Assembly: GCA_947176375.1 (NCBI GenBank) | Contig: CAMWQM010000003.1 | Coordinates: forward strand, 86,899 to 150,898 | From: an uncultured Helicobacteraceae bacterium | GTDB taxonomy: Bacteria > Campylobacterota > Campylobacteria > Campylobacterales > Helicobacteraceae | Length of the DNA: 64,000 bases | Reading direction: 5' to 3' | Shown: piece after piece, positions 45,701 through 54,353 of the stretch | Layout of the letters: each line of letters starts with the position of its first letter | How positions within the stretch are numbered: the stretch's first letter is position 1 | Translations under genes and position numbers: made by a program | Notes under the pieces: generated by a model | Told to the model about the DNA's origin: nothing | The model's database searches: none | Seen by the model: only the letters and a program-made list of their open reading frames with translations

Positions 45701-46232
45701 AGGTCCATCTAAGACGATAAAAAGCCACCATAATGTCGGCGGACTGCCGGAGTGGATGAAGTTTGAGCTCATTGAGCCATTACGAGAGCTATTTAAGGAC
45801 GAGGTAAGGGCATTAGGGCGAGAGCTTGGAATGCCTGAATCTATGCTAATGCGCCACCCATTCCCGGGACCAGGACTAGCCATTCGCATTATGGGTGAGG
45901 TAAATAAGGCAGATTTGGATTTGCTGCGTGAGGCGGATTCTATCTTTATAGACGAGCTACATAAACAAGGCTATTATGATAAAGTATGGCAGGCGTTTTG
46001 TGTGCTGCTCAATGTGCGAAGCGTTGGCGTAATGGGCGATAATCGCACTTATGATAATACAATTTGTGTGCGTGCGGTGGAAGCGATTGATGGAATGACC
46101 GCAACTTTTGCGCATTTACCTCACGATTTTTTAGAGGGCGTAAGTAATAGAATCATCAACGAAGTAGAGGGCATTAACCGCGTGGTGTATGATATTACTA
46201 GCAAACCCCCAGGCACGATTGAGTGGGAGTGA
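42714..46232 (+). CDS. guaA: GMP synthase with inserted GNAT-GNAT-Tag multidomain block
   Basis: GuaA makes GMP from XMP using glutamine and ATP. Domains in order: glutaminase 1-213 (GICYGM Cys82, His170, Glu172); GNAT acetyltransferase 1 about 223-376 (FGKGIGKALL, AISYYSKLGF); GNAT 2 about 394-525 (SGVGKALLQE, ALGFYQALGF); DNA-3-methyladenine glycosylase I about 568-757, with zinc ligands Cys570, His588, His746, Cys750 and catalytic-type Glu609 (LEGFQAGLSW); a Ser/Asp/Glu-rich linker about 758-870; then the ATP-pyrophosphatase (SGGVDSS 880-886) and the dimerisation domain ending KPPGTIEWE. A normal GuaA has about 510 residues; here RQIV and KVLCAVSGG, usually adjacent, are about 650 residues apart. 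All domain motifs look intact and the frame is open. Its 3' end is repeated downstream. Confidence 0.95.
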   Translation: MNKVQILVLDFGSQYTQLIARRLREYGVYTEIVPYFEKLDSIKAKNPKGIILSGGPASVYEKDAYKPDFGLFSLGVPVLGICYGMQLIAQHFGGCVMRAEAQEFGKAVLEIKDKANRLFKGVKQDSIVWMSHADKVESIPQGFVELAKSGNTHYCAIADYKCKIYALQFHPEVVHSECGGQMLRNFAVGICGADTSWNMRNFAQNEIVKLRQIVYGSGVRQCVNPAFKTIKEAFKEIGKAQVIKKLLKIWEDSVRATQEVSEEFITHRRKEIEKDYIAKAEEILICTTTEEWLGFIAVQKNEITLLFIVPQYFGKGIGKALLKETLNRHLYPFEKIKLNSRKQAISYYSKLGFYKAGEPFCVGNYREIMLTPMEVAREDLECALESLRDSLHFITFVEAFKHIGKAQAIERLVEIWEQGARATHKDLSEKEIAGMREEIREAILKSKNLLIAQKNEEWLGFIEIEKNEIAMLFVAPSAFKSGVGKALLQEAFTRYLGKYKVIKVASLEWALGFYQALGFAKTGEKPIPAGSAGAFSPELIPLNITSESLQKSLGLEAQDSNEGVREKVRCPWATDKDEAARKLYENYHDCEWGEPLHEDKKLFEFLILEGFQAGLSWITILKKREAFRAAFDDFDYHKIAAYDEGKIESLMQHKGIIRNRAKIEAAIINAKAFMAVQREFRSFDRYIWGFVGGKPIVNTFESIADLPSSTPLSDTIAKDLKKRGFKFVGTTIVYAFMQAVGMVNDHLTSCFKRNSSLGMQCDKVLDFSQGMDTKSANLTKNPKNLHSHTANTRIVDSQHTESSDTKGQSHLESSADSGSAVSRDYQEQDNIEAEAVEMRKGGFQGGGEGSLLDINDQADNAESALYRSNATLSKVLCAVSGGVDSSVVATLLHRAIGGDLIPVFVDTGLLRKGEREAVEKMFRENLKVPLITADASALFLSRLKGVIEPEKKRKIIGETFIEVFEKEAKKHNTKGEIKFLAQGTLYPDVIESVSVKGPSKTIKSHHNVGGLPEWMKFELIEPLRELFKDEVRALGRELGMPESMLMRHPFPGPGLAIRIMGEVNKADLDLLREADSIFIDELHKQGYYDKVWQAFCVLLNVRSVGVMGDNRTYDNTICVRAVEAIDGMTATFAHLPHDFLEGVSNRIINEVEGINRVVYDITSKPPGTIEWE
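46143..46232 (+). repeat. guaA 3'-end repeat, copy R1 (original)
   Basis: The last 90 bp of guaA, coding SNRIINEVEGINRVV then YDITSKPPGTIEWE. Partial copies end at 47982, 49870 and 54353. The terminal GAGTGGGAGTGA includes the guaA stop and a GGGAG that precedes the next gene's ATG (46238) by 8 nt. Confidence 0.95.
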
Positions 46233-46237
46233 GTGGA

Positions 46238-47068
46238 ATGATAAATACTTTACCCTTTGATAAATTTTTACAGACTCTTCAAACAAGCAATAGAACTTTG
46301 GATTTTTTTGTAGATTGGCAAAAATGTCTCAAAAATAAAAATGAGATAAGCATAGCTTTAAATCATTTGAATTTTTTACTTGGAAAAGATGCAGAAGATC
46401 TTAAAATTTGTATTAAAAGCCTTTTTGAAGAATATCCTAAAGCTTTTAATGTATTAAATCTTCTTATTGCCGTAAGGGACGGAAATGACTTAGTGCTTGA
46501 TGTTGATGGCAATTTTTACCCTTTACATTCTTATTTTAAGAATTATGAAAAAATTTATGAGTTTATTTGTCAAACAGGATTAGAACAAATTTTTTGCAAT
46601 AGAAATATTAAAGATTTAAATGACTTCGTTTTTGGTATAGAAGTTGGGCTTGATAGTAATGCGAGAAAAAATCGTAGTGGAAAGGCTATGGAAACTTATC
46701 TTAGCAGTCTTTTTGCCAATGCTCAATTAAATTTCAAAGAACAAGTTGATATTAGAAATTTTAAGGATTTACACCAAACTTTTGGAGATGATATTAAAAA
46801 ATTTGATTTTGTTATTTTTGGCAAAGATAAAATTTATTTTATAGAATCCAATTTTTATGCAGGTAGTGGAAGTAAGCTTAATGAAGTAGCGAGAGCCTAT
46901 CAAGACTTAGCTCCGAAATTTGAAAAATTTTTAAATTATGAATTTATTTGGATAACCGATGGCAAAGGTTGGTTGAGTGCCAAAAACAAACTTCAAGAAG
47001 CTTATAAATATGTAGAAATCTATAATTTAAGCAATATAGGTAATTTTATACAAAAGGTTAGAAAATGA
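46238..47068 (+). CDS. DpnII/MboI-family type II restriction endonuclease (GATC predicted)
   Basis: The 276-residue protein matches R.DpnII-type enzymes: NSNARKNRSGKAME in the middle (here LDSNARKNRSGKAME), FDFVIFGKDKIYFIESNFY with acidic catalytic residues near 190 and 203, and WITDGKGWLSAKNKL near the end. By family it should cut unmethylated GATC. The start is ATG 46238; an in-frame GTG at 46223 lies inside the guaA tail. GGGAG of the guaA end is 8 nt upstream. It overlaps its methyltransferase by 4 bp. Confidence 0.88.
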   Translation: MINTLPFDKFLQTLQTSNRTLDFFVDWQKCLKNKNEISIALNHLNFLLGKDAEDLKICIKSLFEEYPKAFNVLNLLIAVRDGNDLVLDVDGNFYPLHSYFKNYEKIYEFICQTGLEQIFCNRNIKDLNDFVFGIEVGLDSNARKNRSGKAMETYLSSLFANAQLNFKEQVDIRNFKDLHQTFGDDIKKFDFVIFGKDKIYFIESNFYAGSGSKLNEVARAYQDLAPKFEKFLNYEFIWITDGKGWLSAKNKLQEAYKYVEIYNLSNIGNFIQKVRK

Positions 47069-53488: not shown

Positions 53489-54193
53489 ATGCAAAACCTT
53501 AAAAGCAATATCAAAAATCGCCTATTTCAAGCATTGCGCAATAAATTTGAAAACTACAAGCCCGAAACTTCTTCTATGCCCTTTCATACAAGACTTTTAG
53601 GCAAGGATAGAATGGCACTTTATAGCTTTATCCAAAGCCTCAATACTAATTTTGGCACAAGTATCTTTGAGCCTGTGGCTGAAGAATTGGGTTCAAACAA
53701 TTTTGACAATATTGGGCGTCAAATGGCAGTTGCAAATACAATCACCAAAGAAGCACAAAGAGTGATACAAGATATTATGGATTCTTTAGAAAGCGGCAAT
53801 TCTAAGCCTAACAAAAATGAGGAAATCGCTAGAATCTTGGCGGTTTCACAAAGTGGAGAAACAAGCATTATCAAACCTACAAAGGTGGATTTGTTTTTGC
53901 AGAAGGGCAATAATGTGTATTTAATTGATATTAAAACCGCTAAACCAAACAAGGGTGGATTTAAAGAATTTAAACGCACACTTTTAACTTGGGTAGCGTG
54001 TTTTGCGTATAATAATCCACATTGCAATATCCAATCACTTATAGCGATTCCTTACAATCCTTACGTGCCAAAACCTTATGAACGATGGACGATGGCAGGA
54101 ATGCTAGATTTAGATTCTGAAATTAAAGTGGCAGAGGAATTTTGGGATTTTTTGGGTGGCAAGGGGAGTTATGGGCTGATTTTAAGCCTTTGA
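53489..54193 (+). CDS. TdeIII-family type II restriction endonuclease, 3' end frameshifted
   Basis: 234 residues match TdeIII-like enzymes: catalytic Asp134 (TKVDLFLQKG) and Asp147-x-Lys149 (YLIDIKTAKPNKGG), then FKRTLLTWVA, NPYVPKPYERWTM and EFWDFLGGKG. ATG 53489 is preferred to an upstream frame start inside the methyltransferase. The protein stops at TGA 54191, but the +1 frame continues FEEVGREMREEIDAYFKKF to a TGA at 54255-54257. Family members carry this segment (about 22 residues), so one extra base near 54187-54190 truncates the enzyme. The catalytic core is intact; activity is uncertain. Confidence 0.85.
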   Translation: MQNLKSNIKNRLFQALRNKFENYKPETSSMPFHTRLLGKDRMALYSFIQSLNTNFGTSIFEPVAEELGSNNFDNIGRQMAVANTITKEAQRVIQDIMDSLESGNSKPNKNEEIARILAVSQSGETSIIKPTKVDLFLQKGNNVYLIDIKTAKPNKGGFKEFKRTLLTWVACFAYNNPHCNIQSLIAIPYNPYVPKPYERWTMAGMLDLDSEIKVAEEFWDFLGGKGSYGLILSL

Positions 54194-54264
54194 GGAAGTA
54201 GGGCGTGAAATGCGAGAGGAAATTGATGCGTATTTTAAGAAATTTAATCAACATTGAATCTGTG

Positions 54265-54353
54265 AGTAATAGAATCATCAACGAAGTAGAGGGCATTAAC
54301 CGCGTAGTGCAGACAAACACAAGCAAACCACCGGGCACGATTGAGTGGGAGTA
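54265..54353 (+). repeat. guaA 3'-end repeat, copy R4
   Basis: 89 bp: the first 45 are identical to guaA (AGTAATAGAATCATCAACGA through CCGCGT). Then comes the same variant block as R2 (coding VVQTNTSKPP), then the common end and TAG. The encoded tail is open (VSNRIINEVEGINRVV) but here it is not fused to a gene, because the frameshifted endonuclease ends 8 bp earlier. Confidence 0.95.

Follow-up and report, generated by a model that had tools for sequence, protein, structure and literature searches.

The 3' end of guaA, the gene of GMP synthase, is repeated behind the gene itself in an uncultured member of the Helicobacteraceae. These copies, called tails below, are likely the boundaries of restriction-modification (RM) cassettes moving between species, each tail probably serving as a portable right homology arm with which cassettes are added by double crossover. 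We analysed a 64,000-nucleotide (nt) stretch of contig CAMWQM010000003.1 (the window; its genome is G000) together with a family sample of 121 genomes. At the level of sequence, the comparisons reveal the repeats, a shuffling of cassettes in which homology blocks end in tails, two cross-genus blocks that include guaA, one of them bounded by the guaA body and the last tail, and differences that are concentrated in tails. The repeats of the window, found by sequence comparison, are as follows.

46140..46232, + strand: R1, the native guaA 3' end
47923..47982, + strand: R2, guaA tail copy of 60 nt, QTNT variant
49766..49870, + strand: R3, guaA tail copy of about 105 nt
54262..54354, + strand: R4, guaA tail copy of 93 nt, QTNT variant, at the 3' end of a TdeIII nuclease gene

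All four repeats are direct and their similarity is far above chance: R1 and R4 share 87% identity over 91 nt (E 3e-27), R1 and R3 88% over 85 nt (E 1e-26), and R2 and R4 98% over 63 nt (E 6e-27). A search of the window genome with R4 as query (E up to 0.001) returned R1 to R4 and nothing else, and neither this search nor two other ones gave a fifth guaA-tail copy anywhere in that genome. A preliminary description of this DNA had already claimed four directly oriented copies of the guaA end, and the pairwise alignments and the genome search agree with it; its four sites stand, except that the homology of R3 begins near 49766 and not at 49784, and that R4 ends at 54354. R2 and R3 are, as described there, the in-frame C-termini of methyltransferase open reading frames (ORFs; 47065-47982 and 48578-49870). 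The idea that a tail ends each RM module holds for these two, which end methyltransferases, and for R4, which begins at the end of the TdeIII-type restriction enzyme gene, but R4 forms no fusion of the kind seen in R2 and R3. The GC content is 43-45% in guaA and its tail and 29-34% in the cassettes. The variant block CAGACAAACACAAGC (“QTNT” for “YDIT”) is carried by R2 and R4 (47938-47952 and 54310-54324), while it is absent from R1 and R3.

It is very unlikely that the repeats are an assembly artefact, because Helicobacter (H.) apodemus has R1 to R3 at spacings identical to those of the window and G086, a single-contig genome, contains three intact guaA-tail copies. Neither is the order of cassettes fixed in all relatives, since cassette content varies among them.

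Probable exchange of cassettes between species and genera

The clearest block is shared by H. aurati (L124) and H. mesocricetorum (L125), whose genus labels differ and both of which were isolated from Syrian hamsters. The two are 99.7% identical (23 mismatches in 7,936 nt) over a span that starts within guaA, 1,794 nt ahead of its stop, and reaches as far as the stop of the fourth and last tail. In ungapped comparison, the 500 nt past the last-tail stop are 25% identical and the 500 nt ahead of the block 29%, and the gene which we take to be glmS shows 67% identity over 1.1 kb. GuaA is 99% identical in its C-terminal 599 residues but 78% in the first 112 aligned ones, which puts the left end of the block inside guaA. 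The other block joins the window and H. apodemus (L118), with 96.9% identity over 8.7 kb from the guaA start codon (GuaA, 97.4% amino acid identity across 1172 aa) and 68% over 1.8 kb in glmS. In its main part, identical stretches alternate with others of about 90% identity, and a second block of 797 nt at 94% extends from +7256 to +8049. These shared blocks take in 1.8-3.5 kb of guaA.

Within these blocks the differences gather in the tails. Between H. aurati and H. mesocricetorum, 8 of 594 sites differ in the distal tails and 4 of 5,548 in the cassettes (p 2.5e-6). In the pair of the window and H. apodemus, 18 of 165 sites differ in R2 and R3, compared with 139 of 5,025 sites in all compared cassette DNA (p 2e-6), and in the near-identical part, formed by cassette 2 and the latter half of cassette 1 (cassettes 1, 2 and 3 lie ahead of R2, R3 and R4), the cassettes have 4 differences in 2,613 sites versus 18 of 165 in the tails (p 2e-19). 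For 9 of 16 intact distal tails, no foreign guaA was closer than the guaA of their own genome; the rank sum was 120, compared with a random mean of 795 and a minimum of 300 in 5,000 draws, in a test that leaves out the short L044 tail and includes the non-independent loci L035 and L041. The QTNT block occurs in distal tails of the window, L036, L039 and L042, and in an altered form in L043, and in none of 114 guaA-end sequences.

The RM cassette sets behind guaA differ between related species, and some relatives have only a single guaA end. It turned out in the all-against-all comparison that a cassette which immediately follows guaA in one species can follow a distal tail in another, with homology spanning the tail. 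For instance, the cassette behind guaA in L068 matches the R3 side of the window (94.5%), and those of L091, L076 and L080 correspond to the cassette after the third tail of L039, after the fourth of L035 and after the third of L043, respectively. The junction of cassette 2 and its tail is common to the window, L040, L042, L043, L039 and L079, in differing contexts. The claim that defence cassettes were added repeatedly at one anchor, with the guaA terminus carried or regenerated, is thus supported by the differing sets, the single-end relatives and the recurrence of cassettes in other positions. As to repeated insertion, additions at one anchor are upheld, while the spread of cassettes looks like homologous exchange through the guaA body and tail rather than a fresh insertion each time.

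Ends of homology blocks fall within distal tails in 165 of 530 cases, compared with a null mean of 24.9 from circular shifts (0 of 2000 shifts reach 165), and when counted in 20-nt bins in 85 of 292 cases against a null of 14.0. Among 19 cross-genus blocks of at least 92% identity and at least 800 nt, 9 have at least one border in a tail or at the end of guaA. Two pairs of loci show exchange at a tail. L036 (H. muridarum) and L039 (H. japonicus) share the same decayed, unusual tail (88 nt with one mismatch) and the following 44 nt, the genes ahead of it differ, and the exchange sets in some 88 nt ahead of the stop. L071 and L079 have the same truncated tail, without about the last 47 nt, and the same downstream DNA (95.7% over 1.6 kb) behind different cassettes. 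L071 had also been a candidate for a tail-free relative of cassette 1; it was rejected for carrying this truncated tail, and a supposed microhomology junction was discarded with it. Relatives without a following tail exist for cassette 2 (L061) and for the TdeIII nuclease (L111, L050 and L047).

Distribution of the tails and gene content of the arrays

A degenerate pattern of the GuaA C-terminus matched in 112 of the 121 family genomes (the other 9 had no match) and more than once in eleven, of which G048 and G089 have their matches spread over two contigs. All 34 genomes of the g2 group have one match each. Some array spacings recur across genera, such as 1750 and 1888 nt (G000 and G065) and 2233, 1749 and 2160 nt (G035 and G072). 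We fetched the region downstream of guaA from 81 of the 121 genomes in addition to the window, 30 g2 genomes being represented by 3-kb loci only. The guaA 3' end recurs downstream in 15 of 81 loci, compared with 2 of 329 other ORF ends; this control was originally 6 of 333, and the four ends removed were guaA tails themselves. With less strict matching, 18 of 84 loci yielded 33 distal matches, including two weak ones of 27 nt and a guaA fragment in L035 that lies at a contig end, short of the stop. By the genus labels of the family sample, the arrays occur in six genera. The left border of the tail copies lies -30 to -295 nt from the guaA stop, and complete ones extend to the stop codon on the right. 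A repeat of the attachment-site type, with constant length and a fixed left border, was also considered and rejected, as the left borders vary.

In a second set, of named contigs with at least 1 kb downstream of guaA, 16 of 76 loci had a tail match, four of them weak (17-41 nt; L132, L134, L136 and L154), and all were labelled Helicobacter except L138. The latter, a metagenome-assembled genome labelled uncultured Campylobacter, has a guaA-tail copy and a GuaA 90% identical to that of the window, and is probably a mislabelled Helicobacter. No guaA-tail copy was found in 32 loci from Campylobacter, Arcobacter, Sulfurimonas and other non-Helicobacter groups. The window array had no match in plasmid records (near-match search) or phage records (distant search).

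Free-standing tails, which the preliminary description had thought of as well, are present beside RM genes at other genomic sites. In G064, the methyltransferase of a Tsp45I RM pair ends in a guaA-tail remnant. H. bilis (G036) has, away from guaA, a HaeII-type nuclease followed by a guaA tail and a 105-aa ORF, whose last 25 residues are common with the Tsp45I nuclease of G064. In H. aurati, a guaA tail after glmS is followed by a methyltransferase. Such free-standing tail and RM loci were recorded at L201 6382-8354 (contig C1 of G064, far from guaA), L200 5957-7457 and L199 7129-9270. Besides, an H. aurati contig end (L198) starts inside a guaA copy and has two more tails, so the H. aurati array probably continues there; to judge from these contig ends, the array would have six or more tails, split by the assembly.

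The 15 loci examined from guaA to the last tail (L041, a duplicate of L035, was left out) contain 70 ORFs of at least 110 aa, 69 of them on the guaA strand, which fall into 42 clusters at 40% identity. Of these clusters 38 were scanned, and 34 had a Pfam match. The families are DNA methyltransferases, restriction and HNH nucleases (DpnII, Tsp45I, HaeII, CfrBI, BsaWI, TdeIII and R.PabI types), GmrSD, AIPR and DUF6996/6997. The genes of the window array are listed below.

42714..46232, + strand: guaA, GMP synthase of 1172 aa, anchor and proposed left homology arm (ORF, Pfam)
46238..47068, + strand: cassette 1, DpnII-family restriction endonuclease, ATG 5 nt past the guaA stop (Pfam DpnII, E 1e-90; PADLOC REase_II)
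47065..47982, + strand: cassette 1, N6/N4 DNA methyltransferase, C-terminus formed by R2 (Pfam N6_N4_Mtase; ORF)
47986..48618, + strand: cassette 2, 210-aa protein, paired with the next methyltransferase in all six array loci having it
48578..49870, + strand: cassette 2, Eco57I-like methyltransferase ending in R3 (Pfam Eco57I and GMP_synt_C; PADLOC MTase_II)
49873..51459, + strand: cassette 3, methyltransferase, ATG 2 nt past the R3 stop (Pfam, PADLOC)
51407..52195, + strand: cassette 3, BsaWI-type restriction endonuclease of a nested RM system (Pfam)
52192..53484, + strand: cassette 3, methyltransferase of the nested BsaWI-type RM system (PADLOC MTase_II)
53447..54193, + strand: cassette 3, TdeIII-type restriction endonuclease (Pfam RE_TdeIII, E 1e-81)
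54407..60589, + strand: defence block past R4 with TIR (CAP12/PDC-S35), restriction endonuclease, D12, Eco57I-like and N6/N4 methyltransferases and HNH (Pfam, PADLOC)

The 210-aa protein had no match in Pfam, NCBIfam or PADLOC and is presumed, from its pairing, to be the nuclease partner of the Eco57I-like methyltransferase. The interval from R3 to R4 holds two RM systems, as the BsaWI-type pair sits between the methyltransferase at 49873..51459 and the TdeIII-type nuclease, its presumed partner. The nested BsaWI-type system (51407-53484) has no tail of its own, and in L042 and L043 it stands directly behind guaA. The defence genes past R4 are not followed by a further guaA tail; a homologue of the first part of this block lies directly behind guaA in L081 (75% over 2.8 kb). 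Its first gene, right after R4 (54407-55096), encodes the CAP12/PDC-S35 TIR-domain protein, and no cyclase-type match was seen among the scanned neighbour genes. As to GuaA itself, the amidotransferase and synthetase parts of the window protein are separated, according to Pfam, by two GNAT stretches and a methyladenine-glycosylase domain, and a GNAT and methyladenine DNA glycosylase insertion was present in all four proteins scanned (window, H. aurati, H. mesocricetorum and H. bilis). GuaA ORFs over 15 loci range from 309 aa (L120, possibly a piece only) to 2069 aa, and those of the window (42714-46232), L124 (5372-10909) and L128 (4700-10909) were noted for size or domains.

Proposed mechanism and alternatives

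In the mechanism we propose, a donor fragment would consist of the guaA body, one or more cassettes and a tail. By ordinary homologous recombination, without a dedicated integration enzyme, one crossover would fall in the recipient guaA body on the left and one in the tail on the right. The donor cassettes would thereby be added, guaA restored whole, and the downstream DNA of the recipient kept behind a mosaic tail. The route may be natural transformation with RecA-type recombination; DprA and ComEC families are present in G000. The available part of one paper gives means of 1,645 and 28 bp for H. pylori imports (PMC9426483), comparable in size to the shared blocks and the tail patches, though in another species. 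In the founding event, the end of an RM gene would have been joined to guaA by an illegitimate insertion in which 30-295 nt of the target were duplicated, an event that resembles the RM insertion with long target duplication known from H. pylori; beside this first joining we cite the tail-free relatives L061, L111, L050 and L047.

The tail may have one more role. Intact tails end in GAGTGGGAGT, at times in GAATGGGAGT or GAGTGGGAAT, ahead of the last stop bases, and their GGGAG could be a ribosome-binding site for the next cassette, in which case cassettes would be read together with guaA. In the window the next start codon follows 5, 3 and 2 nt past the stop at R1, R2 and R3, and an ORF starts within -4 to +10 nt at 15 of 30 distal tails (16 array loci).

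Several observations weigh against this mechanism or narrow it. The transfer itself was not observed, and with one genome per species all comparisons are between species. Upstream of the H. aurati and H. mesocricetorum block, a separate guaA stretch of 279 nt is 92% identical (another one, of 309 nt, is 71% identical). The main block of the window and H. apodemus ends at +5193, where no tail is recognisable; it is among the 10 of 19 cross-genus blocks with neither border in a tail or at the end of guaA, so exchange here also proceeds without tails. Tail copies occur in only 15 of 81 loci, and many of the distal ones have decayed or are short (30 nt in L044). Related genomes count as independent in the block-end and rank tests. 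Two of the eight tail differences between H. aurati and H. mesocricetorum fall on the stop codon that closes the block, leaving 6 of 592 versus 4 of 5,548 (p 1e-4) without them. The window and H. apodemus differ also in the first half of cassette 1 (44 of 860) and at the start of cassette 3 (91 of 1,552), so the contrast between tails and cassettes is sharp only in the near-identical part. The three distal tails of the window are not nearest to their own guaA (7-11 differences), and the same is true of one tail each in L036 and L040. Finally, an ORF start is equally placed at 16 of 68 guaA ends in non-array loci, which leaves the ribosome-site idea weakly supported.

Three other explanations were weighed. 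Each RM cassette might have come by its own illegitimate insertion with long target duplication, the tails being scars with no later role. Duplications of 30-295 nt with a variable left border and a right border at the stop fit the description available in PMC3874152 (order of 100 bp), and the tail-free relatives of some cassette genes fit as well. We consider this unlikely, however, since an identical cassette-plus-tail junction is found in several species in differing contexts (cassette 2, six loci), many homology blocks end at tails, and the shared blocks contain 1.8-3.5 kb of guaA. Segmental duplication and gene conversion inside each genome, with horizontal movement minor, would explain why distal tails often match their own guaA best, yet it seems very improbable: most cassette proteins are no duplicates of one another (the 70 ORFs form 42 clusters, and the shared clusters are mainly between species), and the cross-genus blocks at 92-100% contradict it.

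A tyrosine integrase acting in trans, which would recognise the guaA 3' end and move cassettes between tails, was considered because the integrase of the genomic island GIsul2 uses GAGTGGGA in guaA. This string is the usual insertion site of GIsul2 in the available part of PMC9376610, and it also ends most tails displayed. PF00589 proteins are found in 113 of the 121 family genomes among the matches listed, three of them in G000, and at least three single-tail genomes (G077, G083 and G093; L082, L086 and L092) contain a PF00589 match some 3-6 kb past guaA, but each is the best-scoring match of its genome and may be a housekeeping Xer. The preliminary description had seen no integrase in the window, and indeed the window's contig gave no PF00589 match, nor was a recombinase found in the 38 of 42 cassette protein clusters scanned. 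The L036/L039 exchange starts some 88 nt ahead of the stop, well away from the core, that of L071/L079 took place at a truncated tail lacking the core, the H. aurati and H. mesocricetorum block begins 1.8 kb within guaA, and some differences within tails are flanked on either side by unchanged sequence. Such an integrase is therefore quite improbable in our view.

Taking the exchange through guaA body and tail as the preferred reading, we can also state it more broadly, with belief and doubt about equally balanced. The guaA 3' end may be a recombinase-free gene-capture site, whose coding tail of about 100 bp acts as homology arm, enzyme C-terminus and ribosome-binding site in one, giving an integron-like, cross-genus RM array that would be powered by competence and protected because guaA regenerates at each addition.

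Relation to known systems and significance

RM insertion with long target duplication was reportedly described by Nobusato et al. in 2000. In H. pylori, such insertions have long, variable target duplications in the order of 100 bp, according to the available parts of two papers (PMC3874152, PMC4978471). As far as these parts go, the guaA array is alike in its Helicobacter RM genes, direct target repeats of about 100 bp and variable length, and lack of a known mobile element; RM units in such repeats (starts at -30 to -295 nt) are found, and so are empty, single-copy relatives, with one pattern match in most family genomes, between species only. Unlike those insertions, the guaA array stacks many cassettes at one housekeeping gene end, with some repeats fused in frame as C-termini and the repeats serving as boundaries of later cross-genus exchange. 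The duplications are also not each independent at their own insertion, for junctions are common to and exchanged between species.

The minimal mobile element of Neisseria, which Saunders and Snyder are said to have described in 2002, moves by homologous exchange or transformation without mobility genes. The part of PMC4269198 available describes cassettes, mostly RM, gained at a fixed site between conserved genes. To judge from it, this is the nearest concept to the guaA array, though placed between two conserved genes, whereas the right flank of the guaA array is a portable copy of the end of its left gene. Addition would therefore not depend on the downstream DNA of the recipient, and cassettes can stack. 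In the H. aurati and H. mesocricetorum pair only the left flank, guaA, is conserved, the DNA past the last tail being 25% identical.

GIsul2, as presented in the available part of PMC9376610, encodes an integrase and has a short core. The guaA array targets the same gene at the same 3' end, but there is no integrase in its scanned cassette proteins, and its duplications and exchanges span the last 30-295 nt instead of being restricted to the core. The array, moreover, is like an integron in being ordered and mostly unidirectional with repeats between cassettes, and in its presumed transcription from a promoter upstream, but its boundary is the end of a coding gene and the window's contig has no PF00589 match.

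We found no report of a guaA-tail RM array in the literature searched on guaA, RM, islands, hotspots and Helicobacter, the coverage of which was incomplete; the one Helicobacter RM paper found names guaA, in the part available, solely as a purine gene.

In conclusion, the movement of RM systems without transposases or integrases is an open question, for which the guaA locus offers footprints of cross-genus transfer and a testable rule, namely that the end of a conserved gene is carried along as the right homology arm. This rule, if true, would explain the stacking, the kept orientation, the in-frame fusions and the choice of site, and by it, competent bacteria should have comparable arrays at the ends of other conserved genes. 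The locus further suggests that the restriction barriers, too, may be traded between genera.

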